The notes beneath the pieces were generated by a model. The model saw only the letters and a list, made by a program, of their open reading frames with translations, searched no databases and had not been told where the DNA came from. The translations under genes were made by a program, and so were the position numbers. DNA of 35,383 nucleotides, taken from NCBI GenBank assembly GCA_021794655.1, contig JAJYQJ010000138.1, positions 1-35,383 of the forward strand. The letters are read 5' to 3'. Below are positions 7,343 to 34,738 of this stretch, one piece after another (position 1 is the first letter of the stretch; each line of letters begins with the position of its first letter). This stretch comes from Actinomycetes bacterium (lineage in GTDB: Bacteria > Actinomycetota > Acidimicrobiia > Acidimicrobiales > RAAP-2).

Positions 7343-9016
7343 TTAGCGCAGGAAGATTCGCTCCCGGTCGTAGTTTCTGAGCGCCGCGACCTCTTCTGCT
7401 CCCACGGGGTCCGTCTCGCTCACTTCGCGGGCCACCTCGGGCCTCCACCCGCACGACCCTATTAACGCCTCGACCCTCGATGAGATCGATCCGACGCCGG
7501 AGGGAACCGCGCACACGATAAGTCTTCCATCGACGCGCCGTAACACCCCCTTGTCGGTAACGACGCTGACCACCCTCTCGCCGGGCGCCGTCACGTACGA
7601 AACGCTCTCAGGAAGACGGTCCTCGCGCGCAAGGGTAACCACGACGCAAGCTTGTGCGCGGCTCGCGACGTCGTTCGCGCCGCCCGATCCAACAATGAAC
7701 TTCCCGCCGTTGAGCTGTGTAGAATTGAGATTCCCATAACGGTCAACTTCGGCTGCGCCGAGACACCCGACAACGTTGGTGCCTGGCCCACCGACGACCA
7801 TCCCCAACACACTCGACGCATCTGACAAGACGTTCGTGCCCGGGAAAACCCGGTGATTGAAGATGTAAGGATCAGCTGGCGTAGGCGTGTATCCAAAGAG
7901 TCCCAACTCTGCAGTCAGGCAGACCTCAACGCCAGATCGACGACATCGCGCGACGGCAACCCAAGCTGCAAGATTTGCGACACCCGCTCCGGCGAGGACG
8001 GCGTCGGCCCCGTAGGAAGAGACAACCGCCTCAACTTCACGCGCCGCGAGCGCAGCGGCGATCTCCCACTTGCTCACCGGCTCTGACTCTAAAATTGGGT
8101 GAGCGAGGTCGTCTTCCTCCCACGAGCTTGGATCAGCTCGTCCTTCGAGCCATCTGAGACGCTCGGACCCGATCGCTCTAAGGTACGAGTCATGATCCGG
8201 CGGGTCCAAGAGGCGTGTCCGCGCCCAGCTCGCAAAGTCGCCCCGGGCAGCAGTTGCCGCCTCGTTCCAGAACTCAATATCTTCGCCGTAGCTCTTGACC
8301 GGCAGGCCGGGTGCGTAACAGCCGCCAGGGTGGGCCCCGAAGGGAGCTTCTACAACACTCAAGACCCTGTGCGCCGGAACGCGGACACGATATCCGAGGT
8401 CTCCGAGATCGTCGACAATGCGCTCGGCGGTCGCTACAACCCCCCTTCGTGCGGCCCAAGCTCCCCATACGCCTTCGAGGAGAGGCTCTGACAACGCGAG
8501 GTTACCGTTGCGATCCGCGACCGCCGCGTGCAGGAGTGCGACATCAGGAAAGAGTGGGGAGACGAGGCCCACCGGACCAAAATCAGACACGGCGACCGCG
8601 AACCCAGCGTTACTCTCCATGCTCGAACCTCTAATCGATCCAGTTACCGCGGCCGGCAAACCACGCGCCGCCGCCTCCAGACGCTGCGCGAGGGTGAGAA
8701 TCGACCAGTGTTCTACCTCTACGTCTCCACTCTCATAGGCCCTCGTGAAAATTGGGTTCGGCGTGTATCGAGGAAAACTGTTCCCCGAGTAGGCAGTGAC
8801 GACCTTGCGCACCAGCCCACCTTCGAAAAAAAGCGCGCCCAACGCACCCAAGCTCGTCATGATCAAGGTGAACCCTGGATCGGTTCTCCAGAACTGACGA
8901 GCCAGTTCCCGCGCCGCCGCCGTCCAGCGACTATGGCCCAACATGACGTGGACGCTGTCCCCTGGTTCGACGTTGGACTCGATCGCCTCTCTAAGAGATA
9001 CGCCCACTTCAGCCAC
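7343..9016 (-). CDS. Single-chain class I CoA-transferase-like protein (fused alpha and beta domains)
   Basis: At 557 residues this is about the sum of the two subunits of glutaconate-CoA-transferase/IpdAB-type enzymes. Residues 1-290 look like the alpha half (SNVEPGDSVHVMLG, then GLVRKVVTAYSGNSFPR and GPVGLVSPLFPDVALLHAAV). Residues 310-557 look like the beta half, with LTAELGLFGYTP (367-378) holding a candidate catalytic Glu370, and GAAEVDRYGNLNSTQL plus VGSGGANDVASRA (442-454), which are hallmarks of that family. It would transfer CoA between acids or, as in IpdAB, hydrolyse a ring CoA thioester. The start is a GTG at 9016; the purine-rich GGAAG lies rather far upstream, so an internal GTG three codons in is possible. 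Divergent from a TetR gene that may control it. Confidence 0.85.
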   Translation of the reverse strand: MAEVGVSLREAIESNVEPGDSVHVMLGHSRWTAAARELARQFWRTDPGFTLIMTSLGALGALFFEGGLVRKVVTAYSGNSFPRYTPNPIFTRAYESGDVEVEHWSILTLAQRLEAAARGLPAAVTGSIRGSSMESNAGFAVAVSDFGPVGLVSPLFPDVALLHAAVADRNGNLALSEPLLEGVWGAWAARRGVVATAERIVDDLGDLGYRVRVPAHRVLSVVEAPFGAHPGGCYAPGLPVKSYGEDIEFWNEAATAARGDFASWARTRLLDPPDHDSYLRAIGSERLRWLEGRADPSSWEEDDLAHPILESEPVSKWEIAAALAAREVEAVVSSYGADAVLAGAGVANLAAWVAVARCRRSGVEVCLTAELGLFGYTPTPADPYIFNHRVFPGTNVLSDASSVLGMVVGGPGTNVVGCLGAAEVDRYGNLNSTQLNGGKFIVGSGGANDVASRAQACVVVTLAREDRLPESVSYVTAPGERVVSVVTDKGVLRRVDGRLIVCAVPSGVGSISSRVEALIGSCGWRPEVAREVSETDPVGAEEVAALRNYDRERIFLR

Positions 9017-16920: not shown

Positions 16921-17811
16921 ATGGGACTTCTAAATGGACGAGTAGCTGTCGTTACGGGTGCTGGACGAGGGATTGGCAGAGATATCGCGCTCTGCCTCGC
17001 GAGCGAAGGTGCAAAGGTCGTCGTGAACGACGTAGGCGTGTCGCTCGGCGGCGAGGGGACGAAGGACGACCCTGCAGCTCAAGTATGTGAAACGATCGTC
17101 TCTCGCGGTGGCGAGGCCGTCGCGAACCACGACTCGGTCAGCGACTTCGAGTCAGCCGGGCGAATCGTGAACACCGCCGTCGAATCGTTTGGAAAGATCG
17201 ATATCCTCGTGAACAACGCGGGCATCGTACGGGACAAGACGCTCGTGAAGATGGACGAGGCCGACTACGACGCGGTCGTCGCGGTCCACCAGAAAGGAAC
17301 GTTCAATATGGCTCGCCATAGCGCTCCACTGATGAAGGAGGCCGGTTACGGCCGGATCGTGAACATCACCTCGTCCGCGGGGTTACGTGGAAACTTTGGC
17401 CAGACGAACTACGGAGCCGCAAAAGCGGCGATCATGGGAATGACCTTTGTTTGGGCCGTCGAACTCGGACGCTACGGGATCACGGTAAACGCTGTCGCAC
17501 CTGCCGGGTTCACGCGGATGACCGAAGGACTCTACCAAGGCGCAGAGCCGCCGCCCGATCAAGACCCCGCCCTCAACGCTCCTTTGGTTGCCTACCTCGC
17601 GTCCGAAGACGCGTCGTACGTCAACGGTCAAGTCCTCGGTCGCAGCGGGTTCGCATATACGATCTTTCAGACCCCCCGCCAGGTTGCAGCGATGTGGCGA
17701 GAAGGCGGGTGGACCCCGAGCCAGGTCGCGGAGAACTTCCACGAAGTCCTCGGTCAACACCTCCAACCCGTCGGCATGCCGGCCCACCCGCTCCTTGGAA
17801 ACAAGCCGTGA
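16921..17811 (+). CDS. Short-chain dehydrogenase, (3R)-hydroxyacyl-CoA dehydrogenase (MFE-2/HSD17B4-like) type
   Basis: A 296-residue SDR. TGAGRGIG (12-19) binds the cofactor, and Asp37 in VVNDVGVSLGGEG favours NAD. That long loop after the second strand is typical of the dehydrogenase unit of peroxisomal multifunctional enzyme 2. NNAG is at 98-101, Ser151/152 at NITSSAG, Tyr164-x3-Lys168 at NYGAAKAA. The C-terminal 50 residues (VAAMWREGGWTPSQVAENFH) exceed FabG and fit the MFE-2-like group. It would oxidise a 3-hydroxyacyl-CoA to the 3-oxoacyl-CoA that the window's thiolases cleave. The ATG at 16921 is preceded by AAAGGAGGT, slightly far at 11 nt. Confidence 0.9.
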   Translation: MGLLNGRVAVVTGAGRGIGRDIALCLASEGAKVVVNDVGVSLGGEGTKDDPAAQVCETIVSRGGEAVANHDSVSDFESAGRIVNTAVESFGKIDILVNNAGIVRDKTLVKMDEADYDAVVAVHQKGTFNMARHSAPLMKEAGYGRIVNITSSAGLRGNFGQTNYGAAKAAIMGMTFVWAVELGRYGITVNAVAPAGFTRMTEGLYQGAEPPPDQDPALNAPLVAYLASEDASYVNGQVLGRSGFAYTIFQTPRQVAAMWREGGWTPSQVAENFHEVLGQHLQPVGMPAHPLLGNKP

Positions 17812-21050: not shown

Positions 21051-22229
21051 TCAGCTCGCGTTAGTCGTCAAGATGTTGACGACCGCGACTCCCGAACCTC
21101 GCCCGCCGACGTTGTGTTGGAGTGCGTTACCGTTTCGCACCTCGATCTGACGATCCCCTGCTTCGTGGCGCAGCTGCCAGAAGCACTCTGTGACTTGGGC
21201 AACCCCCGTCGCTCCGATCGGATGACCTTTAGCGAGCAGTCCCCCCGAGGGGTTTACCGGTATGCGCCCACCGATCGCCGTCTCGCCTTCGATGCTCGCG
21301 ATACCGCCCTTTCCCTTCTCCACAAACCCCAAGTCCTCGATGTCGAGGATCTCGGTGATCGTGAAGCAGTCGTGGACCTCCGCCATGTCTATCTCGTCCG
21401 GAGATACACCCGACATCGCATAGGCCCTCTCTGCCGCCATCGTCGTCGCCGGCAGGCCGACGTAGCTCGACTTCTCGTGCATGTAGGGGTGATCCGTCGC
21501 TACTCCAAAGCCTGCGACCCACACCGGCTTGTCCGTGAACTCCTTCGCCCGTTCGGCACTCACGAGCAGCACCGCCGCCGCGCCGTCTGTCTGTGGACAG
21601 CAGTCGAGGAGGTGAAGTGGGTGACACACCGGAGGAGAGTCGAGTACCTGTTGCATCGTGATCTCCGACTGGAAGTGAGCGTAGGGGTCCAGTGCGCCGT
21701 TGTGGTGGTTCTTCACCGCGACCGACGCGAGCATCTCACGAGTAGTGCCGAAGTCGTGCATATGGCGGGTCGCAAAAGGAGCGAACAGTACCGGCGCCGT
21801 CTCTCCTCGGTTGTAGACCGGGTGACCGGCGGCGGCCCTCGACAACAGGCCTTCTTCGGTCGACTTGTCCCTCATCTTTTCGACCCCGATGACGAGAACG
21901 ACGTCATGGACGCCGCTCGCGACGACCATCGCGCCTATCCTGAACGCGTCCGAACCTGAAGGACACGCGTTCTCGACTCGCGTGCACGGTATCCCCGCAA
22001 TTCCAATCGCGCTCGGCACTGTGTTTCCGCCGATTCCCTCTTGCCCCCACAGTGTCCCACGTTGGGTCGCGACTATCGCAGCTTCGACCTGGCTCGGGTC
22101 GAATCCCTTGTCGACGCTGTCGACAACCGCCTTGAACGCGCCGTACGCCATCTGCTCGTAACTCTGGTCAAACAGCTCGCCCATGCGGATGAGCCCCGCA
22201 CCGACCATCGCCACCTTGTTCCAACCCAC
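21051..22229 (-). CDS. SCP2-type thiolase / lipid-transfer thiolase-like acetyltransferase
   Basis: A 392-residue thiolase-fold enzyme of the SCP-x/Ltp branch. Cys89 (VENACPSGSDAF), His286 (VHDCFTITE) and His336 (AKGHPIGATG) are present. The C-terminus NALQHNVGGRGSGVAVV is typical of this branch, which lacks the second Cys motif of FadA thiolases. Family members perform thiolysis or, as in actinobacterial Ltp2, retro-aldol cleavage, and they often need a DUF35 partner protein. Here such a partner is encoded next door as a fusion. The start is GTG 22229 with GGGAGG upstream. It is the last gene of the leftward run from 27070. Confidence 0.92.
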   Translation of the reverse strand: MGWNKVAMVGAGLIRMGELFDQSYEQMAYGAFKAVVDSVDKGFDPSQVEAAIVATQRGTLWGQEGIGGNTVPSAIGIAGIPCTRVENACPSGSDAFRIGAMVVASGVHDVVLVIGVEKMRDKSTEEGLLSRAAAGHPVYNRGETAPVLFAPFATRHMHDFGTTREMLASVAVKNHHNGALDPYAHFQSEITMQQVLDSPPVCHPLHLLDCCPQTDGAAAVLLVSAERAKEFTDKPVWVAGFGVATDHPYMHEKSSYVGLPATTMAAERAYAMSGVSPDEIDMAEVHDCFTITEILDIEDLGFVEKGKGGIASIEGETAIGGRIPVNPSGGLLAKGHPIGATGVAQVTECFWQLRHEAGDRQIEVRNGNALQHNVGGRGSGVAVVNILTTNAS

Positions 22230-22319
22230 GACAACTACCTCCCTCTACTCAGATCCTCGTCAACGTCAACGATTAAACAAACGATCCAACTCGACCACAC
22301 CAACACGACTCGCCGCGTC

Positions 22320-23804
22320 CTACTCCTCGTCCTTGGAACTCGCCGACGTGTCAGACGGCAGTCGGTATACCTTGAACCCGTAGACCGGAGCACCCCGTTC
22401 GAGCGCGTAGCGCCGCAACTCGAGTCCGACCTCGTCGCCTATCGACAGCTCGGACGCGTCTTCTGGCATACCTTGCAACATCACTCTCGCCCCGTCCCCC
22501 AAGTCCACCACCGCGAGAGGTAGCGGCGCTTCGAACGGGGGAGGCATCGTGTGGTTGATCACAAACGTCTGCACCGTACCGGAGCGCGCGAGCGCAATCT
22601 CTTCGCCGCCGAGCGCACCACAAGACGGACAGACCGGGTGGATGCTCGGAGGGACGGCGATAGCAGAGCACCGACCACATCTACGCCCTCGAAGCCGGAG
22701 CATCTCGACGTTCCCTCTCACGAACGCCGCACTCCCGGGAGGGACTCCCATCGGAACGGGATCCGACATCGCAACCAACTGTTGACGGGAACGCAAGACG
22801 GACGGATAGCCGAGAGGCCTCACCCCGCGAGCTCCCCCGTCGAACTCCGAGATCGCATCGCTCGCCCCAGGGAGCGGACCGCTGAGCTCGACGACGACGA
22901 CGCTCGATCTTCCCCCACCCGCGGCCACGACACACACCGTTCCGGCGTCTTGAAATCCCCGTAGCGCCCCGAGCAGCGCGGCCGCGGATCCCGCCTCGCC
23001 GACCTTCGCGAACACTCCTTCAGAGCAGACTTCTTTGGCGCCAGTCGCCCTCGCCAACACCTTTCCGAGGCGGCCGTCAGGGTCTGGAATCGACCACCGT
23101 GCGTTCGCCGGGATCTCGTCGCGAATCTGATCGACGGCTCCAGAGACGAGGGGGACGAGTTCTTTCTCTCTGTAGAGCCGTGCGTCGTAGGGGTCGCCGG
23201 TGCCGGGTTGGTTATCGCCACGGTAGCGATCGAGGAACGGTCGGGTGAAAGATGAACGCGACACGAGCTTTCCAGCCGGGGAGGACGAACCGTCTAGACC
23301 ACACAGCACGAGGGCGACGGCCCCAGCTCCGGTGGAACGTTCCGCTCCCGTGCCGAGCCCGGGAATCAACGCATCAGACGCGACGACGAGCGCAGTCTTT
23401 ACCGCTCCGCAGGCAACCGAGTCCCACGCCGCCCACAGCGCGTCGACGCCGGCATGAATCGAACCCGACGCCAACATCCCGTCCGCAGTTTCATCAAGTC
23501 CAACCGCCGTCGCCAAGAACGCGTAACTAGGACCCTCGGGCATCGGAGGACGAGCCGTCCCCCACCACAGACCACCCACGGTATCGATCGCGACATCCGC
23601 CGCGTCGAGGGCACGCTCGACGGCCGAGCAAGCGAGGGTGAGGGTGTCTTCGTCAGGGCCGCACACGGCGACCGAGCCGCGCCCCCCGGGTAGACCCCAC
23701 GCCGACGCGATATCCACGACCGCCAGCCGGCCCCTCGGGATCGACGCTCCAACAGAGAGCACTCCGACGGGACACAACGCGGCACTCTTTGCGTCATCAC
23801 TCAC
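22320..23804 (-). CDS. HMG-CoA-synthase-like (thiolase fold) domain fused to DUF35 OB-fold/zinc-ribbon domain
   Basis: A 494-residue two-domain protein. Residues 11-310 resemble archaeal-type HMG-CoA synthase/KAS III (ALDAADVAIDTVGGLWWGTA, then VGLDETADG and GAGAVALVL). Residues 365-480 are a DUF35 acyl-CoA-associated module with zinc ribbon CGRC...CPSC (Cys376, 379, 392, 395) and an OB-fold. By eye, the synthase nucleophile position (ACKAG-like) reads SIHAG (115-119), and the catalytic His (FHQPNGR-like) reads IPDPDGR (239-245), so both seem lost. In archaea thiolase, HMG-CoA synthase and DUF35 form one complex; here a fused pseudo-synthase/DUF35 lies beside an SCP2 thiolase. The start is GTG 23804 with a weak ribosome site. 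Confidence 0.8.
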   Translation of the reverse strand: MSDDAKSAALCPVGVLSVGASIPRGRLAVVDIASAWGLPGGRGSVAVCGPDEDTLTLACSAVERALDAADVAIDTVGGLWWGTARPPMPEGPSYAFLATAVGLDETADGMLASGSIHAGVDALWAAWDSVACGAVKTALVVASDALIPGLGTGAERSTGAGAVALVLCGLDGSSSPAGKLVSRSSFTRPFLDRYRGDNQPGTGDPYDARLYREKELVPLVSGAVDQIRDEIPANARWSIPDPDGRLGKVLARATGAKEVCSEGVFAKVGEAGSAAALLGALRGFQDAGTVCVVAAGGGRSSVVVVELSGPLPGASDAISEFDGGARGVRPLGYPSVLRSRQQLVAMSDPVPMGVPPGSAAFVRGNVEMLRLRGRRCGRCSAIAVPPSIHPVCPSCGALGGEEIALARSGTVQTFVINHTMPPPFEAPLPLAVVDLGDGARVMLQGMPEDASELSIGDEVGLELRRYALERGAPVYGFKVYRLPSDTSASSKDEE

Positions 23805-23964: not shown

Positions 23965-25161
23965 TCATAGTCGCCAGGCGGGACCCTCCGGGGAGTTACC
24001 CGCCAAGAGACTCTGGGCGATAAAGTTGCGAAGCACCTCTACGGTACCGCCTCCGATGCAAAGGCCACGCACGTCGCGATAGATCCGCTCGACGGGCTCT
24101 TCACGACTGTAGCCGTAGCCTCCGAGCATCTGGATCGCCTCGTCGCAGACATACTTTGCGGCGAGGTTAGCTTTGGCCTTCGCTATCGCCGACTCCAACG
24201 GGGGTGGTGTCCCACCCGATCGCTCCGCCAAGCCAACCGCTCTATACAACAACAACCGCGCCGCGTCGAGCTCGACCGTCATATCGGCGATCTTCCATTG
24301 AAGCCCTTGGTGACCGGAGAGCGCCTTACCTCCGGTCTCTCGCTCTCCCAGATGCTTGATAGCCCGCTCGAGCGCACCTTGGGCCGCTCCGACACACATC
24401 GCCGCGTTCCCGCATCTCTCGTGGTTCAAATGACCAAGCAGCGTCCTGAACGCGTCACCGTTGTCGGGGTCTCCTCTTACAACGACGTCTTCTCGCTCTA
24501 TCCTCACTTCGTCAAACGCGAGCTCCGCCTCGCTGCAACCCCTCAGGCCCATCTTCTTGTGAGTTCCAACAACGCTCACGCCCTCTGCAGACGTATCGAC
24601 GAGCACCGCTCCGATCCCTTTTCCTCCCTTGCTCCCAGGGAACCTACACCAGACGAGGCAGGCGCCCGCCCGGTGACCACCGGTGACGTAGTTCTTGTAC
24701 GCATTCAGCCGGTAACCGGCGCCGTCTTCGGTGAGCTGGGCGCGCATCGAACCCGCTGCAGAACCTGCGTCGGCTTCGGTGATCCCGATGCACATGAACA
24801 TCTCGCCCGACGCGCACTTCGGAAGCCACCGCGCCTTGAGGTCGTCCGATCCGAAGTGCTCGACAACTCGAGACGGGCCGTTGACCGCGAGCTGGCAGAG
24901 GATCGCGCTCGACACGTCGGCGCGGGCGAGTTCCTCCAAGACGATCGTCGACTCGACGTCACCGAGCCCCGATCCGCCGTACTCAGCTGAGATCGTGATT
25001 CCGACCAAGTCGGCTTGGACCAACGCCTCCCAACTCGGCTCCGGGAACTCCTCGGTCTCGTCCCAGTGTCGAGCGTTCGGAGCGAACTCGCGATCTGCGA
25101 CCGACCGCGCGAGGCCGCGAAGCTCGGATCGAATCCCGTCCTCTTCCATGCCCTCTAGCAC
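23965..25161 (-). CDS. Acyl-CoA dehydrogenase
   Basis: A 398-residue FAD enzyme that introduces the alpha-beta double bond in an acyl-CoA. The FAD/substrate motif CIGITEADAGSAAG and the C-terminal IQMLGGYGYSREEPVERIYR with DVRG are characteristic. The Glu used as base in MCAD (YEGT) is replaced: the sequence reads IGGGTVEVL. A Glu in LNHERCG (Glu248) sits where isovaleryl-CoA dehydrogenase has its base, suggesting a branched or aryl-acyl substrate. I chose GTG 25161 with GGGAGG 4 nt upstream; ATG 25149 is an alternative. It follows the HyuB-like gene after 91 bp and is followed by the HMGCS/DUF35 gene after 160 bp. Confidence 0.92.
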   Translation of the reverse strand: MLEGMEEDGIRSELRGLARSVADREFAPNARHWDETEEFPEPSWEALVQADLVGITISAEYGGSGLGDVESTIVLEELARADVSSAILCQLAVNGPSRVVEHFGSDDLKARWLPKCASGEMFMCIGITEADAGSAAGSMRAQLTEDGAGYRLNAYKNYVTGGHRAGACLVWCRFPGSKGGKGIGAVLVDTSAEGVSVVGTHKKMGLRGCSEAELAFDEVRIEREDVVVRGDPDNGDAFRTLLGHLNHERCGNAAMCVGAAQGALERAIKHLGERETGGKALSGHQGLQWKIADMTVELDAARLLLYRAVGLAERSGGTPPPLESAIAKAKANLAAKYVCDEAIQMLGGYGYSREEPVERIYRDVRGLCIGGGTVEVLRNFIAQSLLAGNSPEGPAWRL

Positions 25162-25252
25162 GAAACCTCCCGTCGCATCGCGGCGTCGCCAAGAGCCGCG
25201 CCACCCGAACCGGTACCGCCGAAAGCGGCACCTAAGGCAGAGTACGTGGCGG

Positions 25253-27070
25253 TCACCTGCCTCTTGACCCGCCGGCACGCATCTCGGCCCGGCATGCCTC
25301 GGTTGCGGCTTCGTCAATCTCAAGGGTCAGATCTTCTAGCGATCCGGTGAGAACGACGCCGTAGTCCCTCTTGGCGCCCTCCACACTCACGTACTCGTCT
25401 AAGACGTCGTCGAGAACGGCGCTCGGCTCCCGATCAAGGGGATCTCCCCATCCCCCACCGCCGCCGTAGTCGTAGACGATGCGATCTCCTGCATCCATCG
25501 GGACCCAGTCGGCGGTGTGTTGAACGACGAACGGGCTCTTAGAGGTGGCCCTCAGCGTGAGCTTGTTTGGCTCACCGGCGAGTCCGCCGGCTATTCCGGG
25601 CATCGGGTACTTCATCCCGACGACGTAGGTGTAGACCGCAGAGGGAACACGCACTTCCTTTATGTAGTGACTCCCGCAACCTCCACGCCACTGGCCGGGA
25701 CCGCCCGAGTCGGTGCGATAGTCCCGACTCCACTGGATGTGCGGGTAGTAACTCTCGTTGATCTCCGCGGTCGCTTTCCACAGGTTGCCAAACGAAGCGC
25801 TGACGGCACCCCAGGCGTCCATTCCCTTGGCTGCGTTGCACCATCCCGCGTAGACCTCAGCGGAGGAGTCTACGAACACCTGCCCAGTCCGTGGGTCTAC
25901 GCCACGTATCGTCGTCGGTATGCCGGTTTTATAGGTCTGAGGTACCGCCCTCTCGGGGAGTACCTTTGAGAGCGCGACTGCGATTACCTCTCCGATGTCG
26001 GCGCCGGGATGATGCGTCCCGGCGCTCACGGGGCGCCCAGGGACCGGGTTGAGCACACACCCTTCGGGGACGATCAGCTCGATCGAGTTGAAAAAACCCT
26101 CGTTCTTTGGGATCTCGGGGTCCATCATCGCTGCGATCTGTGCGACCGTGTAGCCCCTGGTATTGCCGTAAGTTGACCAAGCCTGGAGCTCTTGGCGCTC
26201 ATCGGATCCCGTGTAATCGACCGTCAGGTGCGAACCCGAGACGGTGATCTTGGCATGAAGGTGGATGTCGGGATTACCGAGCGGATCGTGATCCACGTAC
26301 GCGTCGCCTTCGTAGACACCGTCAGGCCACGCCGCTACTTCCTCTGCGAAACGTCGTGAGGCGTAGTCGATCGCGTGATCCACAGAAGACTCGACGACGT
26401 CGACGCCGTACCTCTCGATCAAGTCGAGGAGTTCGTCGGCGGCCTGCTTCGCTGCCCCGATCTGGGCTCTCAGGTCGCCGAGATAGCCGTCGAGGCGGTT
26501 GTTGACCTGCAACGCGTAGAGCACGTCTCGGCGCTCGACTCCACGGTCGAGAACTTTCAACACCGGCCAACGAACGCCTTCCCCCCAGACGTCACCCGCG
26601 GTAACGTTGTAGCCGCCTGGAACTGCACCTCCGGTATCTCCGTGGTGACACTGGATGCTCGAAATCAAGACGAGATGGTCGTCGACGACCACCGGAGAAA
26701 AGACGTTGTAGTCAGGCAGGTGACCACCGCCGTGGTATGGATCGTTCGCGACGAAGACGTCGCCTTGATGGAACTCGTCGACGCCGAGAAAGTCGAGTGC
26801 GAATCGGACCGGCAGGGTCGACGTCAACATGAACTGGGGGATCCCAACGCTCAACGCGGCCAACCGACCTTTCCCGTCCAGGATCGTCGCGTTTCGCTCG
26901 TTCGACTGGTTCAAGATCGGGGTGGTCGCGGTGCGCGATACGTACATCGCCATCTCGAAACAGATGGTCTCCATACTCCCCCGGATCACCTCGGCCGTTA
27001 CCGGATCCACGCTACCGCCGTCCATTAGACGTGTACGTGGTCCCGCCAGTGCCTTTAGATCGACGTTCAT
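25253..27070 (-). CDS. Hydantoinase B / oxoprolinase-family protein (HyuB-like)
   Basis: A 605-residue member of the hydantoinase B family (PF02538). QGDVFVANDPYHGGGHLPDY (102-121) and CHHGDTGGAVPGG (141-153) are the family's most conserved elements. SGGPGQWRGGCG and YGGGGGWGDPL mark the C-terminal half. The family forms complexes with HyuA ATPases and acts in ATP-dependent opening of hydantoins or in carboxylation of acetone/acetophenone. No HyuA is encoded in this window, so it is an orphan here. I chose the ATG at 27070 with GGGAGGG close upstream; the open frame beyond lacks similarity. It is the first gene of a leftward run with acyl-CoA dehydrogenase, HMGCS/DUF35 and thiolase. Confidence 0.92.
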   Translation of the reverse strand: MNVDLKALAGPRTRLMDGGSVDPVTAEVIRGSMETICFEMAMYVSRTATTPILNQSNERNATILDGKGRLAALSVGIPQFMLTSTLPVRFALDFLGVDEFHQGDVFVANDPYHGGGHLPDYNVFSPVVVDDHLVLISSIQCHHGDTGGAVPGGYNVTAGDVWGEGVRWPVLKVLDRGVERRDVLYALQVNNRLDGYLGDLRAQIGAAKQAADELLDLIERYGVDVVESSVDHAIDYASRRFAEEVAAWPDGVYEGDAYVDHDPLGNPDIHLHAKITVSGSHLTVDYTGSDERQELQAWSTYGNTRGYTVAQIAAMMDPEIPKNEGFFNSIELIVPEGCVLNPVPGRPVSAGTHHPGADIGEVIAVALSKVLPERAVPQTYKTGIPTTIRGVDPRTGQVFVDSSAEVYAGWCNAAKGMDAWGAVSASFGNLWKATAEINESYYPHIQWSRDYRTDSGGPGQWRGGCGSHYIKEVRVPSAVYTYVVGMKYPMPGIAGGLAGEPNKLTLRATSKSPFVVQHTADWVPMDAGDRIVYDYGGGGGWGDPLDREPSAVLDDVLDEYVSVEGAKRDYGVVLTGSLEDLTLEIDEAATEACRAEMRAGGSRGR

Positions 27071-27121
27071 AAAGCCCTCCCTTAGGCCCTCAAAGTTCGC
27101 TCCGCAATCAACGTTGTTCAC

Positions 27122-27193
27122 CTCTGTTGACACACTTCTCTGTTGACACGCTTCATTCGAGGCGTTCGCAGCCAGCTGCTCGCGGCCAGCTGC
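27122..27193. promoter_or_regulatory. Two sets of direct repeats in the HyuB/oxidase divergent region
   Basis: CTCTGTTGACAC is repeated at 27122-27133 and 27138-27149 (16-bp period), each containing a TTGACA hexamer. GCCAGCTGC, with palindromic CAGCTG, is repeated at 27171-27179 and 27185-27193 (14-bp period). Together they mark a candidate control region for the divergent genes. Confidence 0.5.
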
Positions 27194-27227
27194 CAGAGTC
27201 CACTCGTACAGTGGCATCGAACCTTTC

Positions 27228-32784: not shown

Positions 32785-33115
32785 CAGCTCAGATCTCCCC
32801 TGTCAAAGGGATGAAGGACCCCGCTGTCTCGTCGTTCTCGTCGTTGTATATTTATTTCCACCTCTCACCCCTCTTCAACTCTCCGCCAAGTGAACACTCT
32901 AAGTTAAACCGTCACCGTCTCGCGAACTGCAGTTCTATCTGCGCCTTCAAGTAGTTGTCTAGGGCGTCTACGAGCCGAAGTTGACGCGACGGCCTGATTC
33001 GAAGCAGCATTACCCATCGCGGCTTTGGGGTCAACCCGAACCACTAATGTGCTTAATTAGCGGTCAGGATCGACCGAGCCAACGACGAAGAGGAAATAGA
33101 GACAAGAGGAGCAAC
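32785..33115. other. 331-bp divergent intergenic region
   Basis: It holds the candidate leftward promoter described separately. A weak 5-bp inverted repeat, CTAAT/ATTAG (33044-33060), lies 56 bp before the DUF35 gene. The 50-bp stretch around 32840-32890 is richer in A+T than its surroundings. I see no gene in it. Confidence 0.5.
32849..32878 (-). promoter_or_regulatory. Candidate promoter for the acyl-CoA ligase pair
   Basis: On the minus strand TTGAAG (complement of 32873-32878) is followed after 18 bp by TAAATA (complement of 32849-32854), within an A+T-rich patch, about 65 bp before the ligase ATG. Moderate match to a sigma-70-type promoter. Confidence 0.35.
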
Positions 33116-33523
33116 GTGACGACTGTCCGCTACGACTTGCCAACGCCAGAGGGTGACACGATTGAGTTCTGGAACGCAGCGAAAGACGAACGGCTATTGA
33201 TCAAACACTGTGGCGATTGCGGGGAGTTCTCCTACTATCCCCGTCCGTTTTGCCCGAAGTGCTGGAGCGAGAACGTTGCCTGGCATGAAGCGAGTGGCAA
33301 CGCCACCCTCTACTCCTGGTCGGTCATCTACAGCAACGACCAGCCTCCGTTCAAGGAACGAGTCCCTTACGTTGCGGCGATCGTGGACCTGAGTGAAGGG
33401 CCGCGTATGATGAGCAACGTCGAGGAGTGCGAGTTCGACGACCTTGAGGTCGGAATGGCGCTCAAAGTTAAGTTTCGCGCGATCAGCGACGAATTCACTA
33501 TTCCGGTTTTCGTTCCGGCCTAA
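33116..33523 (+). CDS. DUF35 OB-fold/zinc-ribbon acyl-CoA-associated protein
   Basis: A 136-residue stand-alone DUF35 protein. The zinc ribbon is CGDC...CPKC (Cys32, 35, 46, 49), followed by an OB-fold with SWSVIY and the family-typical VPYVAAIVDLSEGPRMMSNV. Such proteins bind thiolase-fold enzymes and help hold the acyl-CoA, as in archaeal thiolase/HMG-CoA synthase and ChsH2-Ltp2. The GTG at 33116 has GAGGAG 4 nt upstream; the frame is open from 32981 but the extra residues are not family-like. A thiolase gene follows after 42 bp, so the pair is a probable complex. Confidence 0.9.
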   Translation: MTTVRYDLPTPEGDTIEFWNAAKDERLLIKHCGDCGEFSYYPRPFCPKCWSENVAWHEASGNATLYSWSVIYSNDQPPFKERVPYVAAIVDLSEGPRMMSNVEECEFDDLEVGMALKVKFRAISDEFTIPVFVPA

Positions 33524-33565: not shown

Positions 33566-34738
33566 ATGAGTGACGCCGTCATCGTGTCCGCGGTCCGCAC
33601 GCCGATAGCAAAGGCCGGGGGTGGTCTCGCGCCACTCGCTCTTTACCAAATAGGAGAAGTCGTCGTACGAGAGGCGCTAAAACGCTCCGGGGTGAACGCT
33701 GAAGACGTCGACGACCTCGTCCTCGGGGAAACACTCCAAGGGGGAGGATGCACGGCGCGTTACGTCGCGGTGAGCTTGGATCTGCCTCCTGACACCCCCG
33801 GTTTGGCGGTGCAACGCCAGTGCGCAACTGGAATGGCCGCGATCCAAGATGCTGCCGCCCAGATCAAGGCCGGCATGGCAAGGGTTGTCGTCGCAGGCGG
33901 GATCGAGTCGATGACGCGATTTCCTCAACAGTTCTCGAAGTCTCCGTTTCCGTTCGGCGGGGTCGAACCGTTCCTCCCACCGAGTCACCCGGACACACCT
34001 GACGCTCCTAATATGAACATGCTGATAACGGTAGGTGAGAACACGGCGAACGAATGTGGAATCACCCGAGAAGAGCAGGACGAGTGGTCTTATCACTCGA
34101 ACCTGCGTGCTATCGACGCGATGGACGCAGGGCGATTCGAGTCAGAAGTCGTCGCCGTAGAGATTGCCGGCAAGGTGCCGACCACTTTCTCGACAGACGA
34201 ACAACCCCGGCGCGACACAACCTTTGAGAAGCTCGCGGGCTTGCGGGTGCTTAGCGGTCCGGGTGGGACGATTACGGCCGGCAACTCGTCTGGCATCGGA
34301 GACGGTGGTGCGGCCCTCGTGGTGGTTGATCGAGACTACGCAGACTCTCACGGTTTGGAGATCCTCGCAGTCGTCAAATCGTGGGCGTCAGCGGGCATCG
34401 AACCAGCGAGAACCGGCTTGGCTCCTACCGTTGCAGTCCCAAGAGCTCTTTCACGAGCTGGTTTGACCACATCGGACGTGGATCTAGTCGAGATAAACGA
34501 AGCTTTCGCGTCGATGGCGATAGCGTGCTCACGAAAGCTCGGTTTTCCTCACGACATAGTCAACGTCAACGGAGGCGCGGTGGGCATCGGCCACCCGGTC
34601 GGATGCTCAGGGGCACGGATACTCGTCACACTGATCCATGAGCTGAGGCGCCGCGGTGGAGGAGTCGGCGTTGGTACGTTGTGCGCAGGAGGAGGTATGG
34701 GCTCAGCGACCGTCCTCGAGGTGCCACAACCCTCCTGA
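33566..34738 (+). CDS. Thiolase (acetyl-CoA acetyltransferase, FadA-like)
   Basis: A 390-residue degradative-type thiolase. Cys86 (VQRQCATGMAA), Asn311 (EINEAFASM), His343 (GIGHPVGCSG) and Cys373 (TLCAGGGMG) form a full active site. Length and motifs suit 3-oxoacyl-CoA thiolysis. The ATG at 33566 is preceded by AAGGAGGAGG, one of the strongest ribosome sites in the window, which suggests high expression. Co-directional with the DUF35 gene 42 bp upstream. A FadA-type thiolase paired with DUF35 is less usual than the SCP2-type pairing seen at 21051-23804. Confidence 0.95.
   Translation: MSDAVIVSAVRTPIAKAGGGLAPLALYQIGEVVVREALKRSGVNAEDVDDLVLGETLQGGGCTARYVAVSLDLPPDTPGLAVQRQCATGMAAIQDAAAQIKAGMARVVVAGGIESMTRFPQQFSKSPFPFGGVEPFLPPSHPDTPDAPNMNMLITVGENTANECGITREEQDEWSYHSNLRAIDAMDAGRFESEVVAVEIAGKVPTTFSTDEQPRRDTTFEKLAGLRVLSGPGGTITAGNSSGIGDGGAALVVVDRDYADSHGLEILAVVKSWASAGIEPARTGLAPTVAVPRALSRAGLTTSDVDLVEINEAFASMAIACSRKLGFPHDIVNVNGGAVGIGHPVGCSGARILVTLIHELRRRGGGVGVGTLCAGGGMGSATVLEVPQPS

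Follow-up and report, generated by a model that had tools for sequence, protein, structure and literature searches.

The question raised by this locus is what a protein joining an HMG-CoA-synthase (HMGCS)-like domain to a DUF35 module does beside an SCP2-type thiolase. The window (the whole stretch of DNA analysed, 35,383 nucleotides from an Actinomycetes bacterium of the order Acidimicrobiales) encodes together all three parts of the thiolase/HMGCS-like/DUF35 kind. The features of the fusion protein were as follows:

22320..23804, minus strand: fusion protein of 494 aa, pseudo-HMG-CoA-synthase plus DUF35, GTG start, by profile and PDB matches
22770..23771, minus strand: HMGCS-like domain, residues about 12-345, matched full length by the family profile to 6esq_I and 5m3k_A (PhlA)
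22356..22727, minus strand: DUF35 module (zinc ribbon plus OB fold), residues about 360-483, by PF01796 and 6esq_E
22620..22679, minus strand: zinc-ribbon Cys376, 379, 392 and 395, by alignment
23553..23555, minus strand: Ala84 at the HMGCS catalytic Glu position, by alignment to M. thermolithotrophicus HMGCS
23457..23459, minus strand: Ile116 at the HMGCS catalytic Cys position (GSIHAG), by the same reference alignment
23085..23087, minus strand: Pro240 at the HMGCS catalytic His position (SIPDPDGR), by the same reference alignment

The N-terminal part was matched by the archaeal HMGCS family (NCBIfam NF003274, E 1e-21; PDB 6esq_I, E 2e-10), while the HMGCS equivalog cut-offs were not reached (77 bits against 244 for NF003274; 44 against 353 for TIGR00748). 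The C-terminal part scored 33.9 bits with the OB-fold model PF01796, above the Pfam gathering cut-off of 27.1, and also matched PDB chains 6ok1_B and 6esq_E. The zinc-ribbon model PF12172 reached an E-value of only 0.026, with all four Cys of the C4 ribbon present. A family profile built from 40 relatives of the fusion and searched against solved chains gave much stronger matches, over the whole length of the N-terminal part to M. thermolithotrophicus HMGCS (6esq_I, E 7e-63) and PhlA (5m3k_A, E 2e-63), and in the C-terminal part to the DUF35 chains of both complexes (6esq_E, E 1e-27; 5m3k_B, E 2e-18). Among the PDB matches listed, no solved chain spanned both parts. The coordinates and both domain matches agree with the first-pass annotation, which had placed an HMGCS-like domain and a zinc-ribbon DUF35 in one protein. 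An AlphaFold prediction of the fusion alone, from an alignment of two sequences (the window and L023), had a pLDDT of 32. A peptide-pattern genome scan returned one close relative; an orthologue with 63% identity exists, and about 24 orthologues at 45-66% were found in the host's order. The fusion was considered as a pseudogene and this was ruled out, with the reading frame intact and the orthologues conserved.

Aligned to M. thermolithotrophicus HMGCS, the window fusion carries Ala84 for Glu82, Ile116 for Cys114 and Pro240 for the catalytic His, and by these three residues it falls outside HMG-CoA synthase (EC 2.3.3.10). SIHAG and IPDPDGR had been read beforehand as the nucleophile and His sites, and the alignment puts both motifs there; the claimed loss of Cys and His, staked on exactly this comparison with an archaeal HMGCS, was borne out. 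The same loss was observed throughout the family. Neither the catalytic Cys nor the catalytic Glu was kept in any of 69 distinct fusions, and the His was missing in 68, the one exception being a Haladaptatus protein that has His without Cys or Glu. Eight different residues (L, T, P, V, A, I, Q or S) occupy the Cys column, so no replacement is fixed at this site. The fusion family therefore shows both loss of the HMGCS active site and lack of constraint on it. Since the entire family lacks these residues, their loss is an old state; a recent local decay, as in the earlier statement that the synthase had decayed "here", is ruled out.

The adjoining thiolase, encoded in the same operon, presented the opposite picture, with the following features:

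21051..22229, minus strand: SCP2-type thiolase, 392 aa, NF004720 above cut-off, 6esq_A E 3e-79
21963..21965, minus strand: nucleophile Cys89, conserved in 69/69, by alignment
21363..21374, minus strand: HDCF motif, His286-Phe289, with H, D and C in 69/69, by alignment
21222..21224, minus strand: His336 (GHP), in 68/69 with one gap, by alignment

The window protein has the complete SCP2-type set, comprising the Cys89, His286 and His336 originally noted and also Cys288 of HDCF. Across the thiolases adjoining fusions, Cys89, His286, Asp287 and Cys288 were invariant. Its best solved relative was 6esq_A, the thiolase of the archaeal complex, and the best PDB relatives of all parts of the two proteins were chains of the same two complexes (6esq A, E and I; 5m3k A and B). 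Our strongest single result is this contrast, with the pseudo-site unconstrained and the thiolase site fixed.

Full-length fusions were gathered from 61 relatives, 296 genomes of the phylum, 397 genomes of the order and plasmids, the plasmid-borne copies coming from haloarchaea, Sphingomonadaceae and a betaproteobacterium. The 69 distinct fusions span Actinomycetota, haloarchaea, Alpha- and Betaproteobacteria; no relatives were found in viral contigs. A same-strand thiolase lay within 400 bases of the fusion in 69 of 70 cases (67 downstream, 2 upstream), and the single fusion without one (L047) stops at a contig end. This survey bears out the expectation of conserved adjacency. In two haloarchaea the annotated loci have the thiolase preceding the fusion. 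Natrinema halophilum encodes the HMGCS-like, OB-fold and thiolase proteins as three separate consecutive genes, and its unfused HMGCS-like protein is also dead. Possible fusions of all three parts (L040, L034, L037) were rejected, as the long thiolase ORFs lie in other frames, and none was found.

Pairwise identities among the HMGCS-like domains tracked those among the neighbouring thiolases, the two matrices correlating at 0.93 (best of 2000 permutations 0.14), in part because of shared species history. For pairs whose thiolases were 80-90% identical, mean identity was 56% in the HMGCS-like part and 66% in DUF35; the pseudo-domain diverges fastest and is under the weakest constraint. Of the 69 fusions, 13 (L016, L022, L011, L014, L096 and others) had lost three or more of the four zinc-ribbon Cys, so the scaffold is not identical throughout the family. 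All structurally characterised DUF35 proteins have been reported to bind zinc (PMC6996347).

In a tree of HMGCS-like domains, the window protein fell in a clade of 21 sequences from the order (support 0.998), separate from the remaining fusions; support was weak (0.58) for grouping the unfused Natrinema protein with the two haloarchaeal fusions. Two neighbours are conserved at the loci of the window clade:

23965..25323, minus strand: acyl-CoA dehydrogenase, upstream of the pair and co-directional with it; 12 of the 23 clade loci also have it upstream
16921..17811, plus strand: SDR of the 3-hydroxyacyl/oxoacyl dehydrogenase type, convergent; 9 of the 23 clade loci also have it downstream

Also recurring near the pair were a branched-chain-type ABC importer, a class II aldolase, a second thiolase, CoA ligases and a CoA-transferase-like protein. 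As judged from gene content, the locus appears to be a catabolic CoA-thioester island, though the sequence does not reveal its substrate. The host genome carries Dxr, so its isoprenoids would come by the MEP route and need no HMG-CoA; a mevalonate role for the fusion is ruled out by Dxr together with the dead HMGCS site.

Several other genes were observed around the pair. The CoA-transferase-like protein (window 7343-9016, minus strand) is a single chain with both halves, 49-64% identical in the clade's loci. A haem-oxygenase-like/CADD-like protein (PF14518; 27368-28141, plus strand) lies beside the operon in six clade loci at 69-77% identity. A hydantoinase B/oxoprolinase subunit (25253-27217, minus strand) is 90% identical to its G001 counterpart, and the adjoining listed ORFs do not look like hydantoinase A. 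A stand-alone DUF35 (33053-33523, plus strand) is followed directly by a thiolase (33566-34738, plus strand) with INEAF and GHP motifs, of the classical rather than the SCP2 type. Some relatives have a second, separate pair of DUF35 and thiolase genes immediately upstream of the cassette with the fusion (L128 7554-9193, and similarly in L126-L133); by a simple pattern search, the thiolase of this extra pair has no HDCF.

We consider it likely that the two genes encode one heteromeric thiolase with the fusion as its non-catalytic partner, and that fusion and thiolase are probably a widespread, overlooked two-gene complex. The best reading, by analogy, is a pseudoenzyme-DUF35 scaffold for a degradative thiolase, with the architecture of archaeal thiolase/HMGCS/DUF35 and of PhlACB but with two subunits fused. 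Chemistry would be carried out by the thiolase subunit, as CoA-dependent cleavage of a beta-ketoacyl-CoA via Cys89 with His286, Cys288 and His336. The DUF35 part would dock to the thiolase and help form the CoA/acyl site, while the dead HMGCS-like part would sit where HMG-CoA synthase sits in the archaeal complex or PhlA in PhlACB, where it would provide structure and close off the shared cavity. With both parts in one chain, their ratio would be fixed at 1:1. Because the proteins fit the PhlACB plan with the PhlA- and PhlB-like parts joined, we infer that the fusion is a scaffold without catalysis of its own that would complete the CoA/acyl cavity; the complex itself and a CoA or cavity role are predicted on this plan. 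The degradative direction is suggested by the nearby acyl-CoA dehydrogenase, SDR, CoA ligases and importer. Of the first-pass interpretation, the loss of residues, the neighbourhood and the idea that the fusion serves the thiolase as a scaffold or by holding CoA have stood, this last through a direct analogy to PhlA and to archaeal DUF35; decay "here" and the retro-aldolase option have not.

An acyl transfer to carbon as in PhlACB (C-acylation or another condensation), with the dead domain shaping the cavity, is unlikely. PhlA, the best profile match of the family, is also dead (PMC6392133), but the numbering suggests by spacing that PhlC has Tyr298 opposite His286 of HDCF (PMC6392133), the window thiolase matches acetoacetyl-CoA thiolase (E 3e-79) far above PhlC (E 2e-30), and the neighbouring genes are catabolic. 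Even with no recognisable catalytic residue, a protein could have acquired a new activity, and a catalytic role of the HMGCS-like domain's own (hydrolase, decarboxylase or acyl-holding site) would accord with a domain that is full length in all members and has nearly invariant DEDxxT and VGxxGxA motifs. We nevertheless find this quite unlikely, as the three old catalytic columns hold no conserved residue, and DEDxxT, present also in true HMGCS and PhlA, may be structural. Least probable of all is a retro-aldolase like Ltp2-ChsH2 or Sal-Shy, in which DUF35 is needed for cleavage of a beta-hydroxyacyl-CoA, for although those aldolases likewise combine DUF35 with an SCP2-type thiolase fold (PMC12329534), Ltp2 uses YDHF and Tyr344 and Sal uses YDCY (PMC12329534), whereas the thiolase set is complete here, with HDCF, nucleophile Cys and GHP His (His, Asp and Cys of HDCF in 69/69), and the nearest solved relative is a true thiolase, the archaeal acetoacetyl-CoA thiolase 6esq_A.

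The heteromeric thiolase reading bears on a published puzzle. In the oestradiol edc cluster of Novosphingobium (Caenibius) tardaugens, EGO55_13555 was called an HMG-CoA synthase; its authors found such a reaction senseless there, and their tree sets the gene apart from true HMGCS (PMC7793797). We observed a dead fusion with its thiolase inside an oestrogen-degradation-like cluster of Novosphingobium ES2-1 (L093 9016-11573). EGO55_13555 is syntenic with it in cluster position and adjoins an acetyl-CoA acyltransferase, and from this gene order, rather than from its own sequence, it is a probable relative of the fusion; the substrate in that cluster is an oestrogen intermediate. More tentatively, and with some doubt, we suggest a widespread undescribed two-gene family of bacteria and haloarchaea in which the pseudo-HMGCS-DUF35 fusion might build an enlarged shared CoA/acyl cavity, so that bulky or cyclic beta-ketoacyl-CoAs, those of oestrogen degradation among them, could be cleaved by a subunit resembling acetoacetyl-CoA thiolase. 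Public names on fusion genes include "HMG-CoA synthase", "OB-fold domain-containing protein", "zinc ribbon domain-containing protein" and "hypothetical protein". If the fusion is a thiolase partner, these labels would be wrong in many genomes, the oestrogen-degradation puzzle would be answered, a thiolase expressed alone would be half an enzyme, and the family would offer a clear example of a pseudoenzyme retained in more than one domain of life solely for its place in a complex.

In the open-licence literature, no paper was found that treats these fusions as a family whose HMGCS domain is dead. The authors of the SSO2064 study noted DUF35 fused to thiolase-superfamily domains and an active/inactive pair in the phl operon (PMC2954200), so the pseudoenzyme-DUF35 idea is not new in principle. 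In the archaeal complex (6ESQ), thiolase and HMGCS are joined by DUF35 and share a CoA site (PMC12329534, PMC6996347); all three parts of our locus match the corresponding chains, but here the HMGCS site is dead, HMGCS and DUF35 are fused, the surroundings are catabolic and the host uses the MEP route. The PhlACB acyltransferase (PDB 5M3K) likewise combines DUF35 and an active thiolase-fold subunit with an HMGCS-like subunit, PhlA, that has neither Cys nor Glu and is needed for assembly; only PhlC carries out the chemistry, and activity needs the whole complex (PMC6392133). It differs in consisting of three separate proteins and in performing C-acylation, whereas the window thiolase keeps HDCF. 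In the steroid aldolases ChsH2-Ltp2 and Shy-Sal (PDB 6OK1, 9MYR) a fused DUF35 also serves a thiolase-fold partner, but it is joined to a MaoC hydratase instead of HMGCS, and the partner has the aldolase residues YDHF or YDCY. Benzoylsuccinyl-CoA thiolase BbsAB (PDB 7PXP) pairs DUF35 with a degradative SCP2-type thiolase and lacks an HMGCS-like part. We judge the fusion pair to be real and well conserved, and its present annotation to be wrong; it varies a known type of complex by a covalent link and does not amount to a new type.
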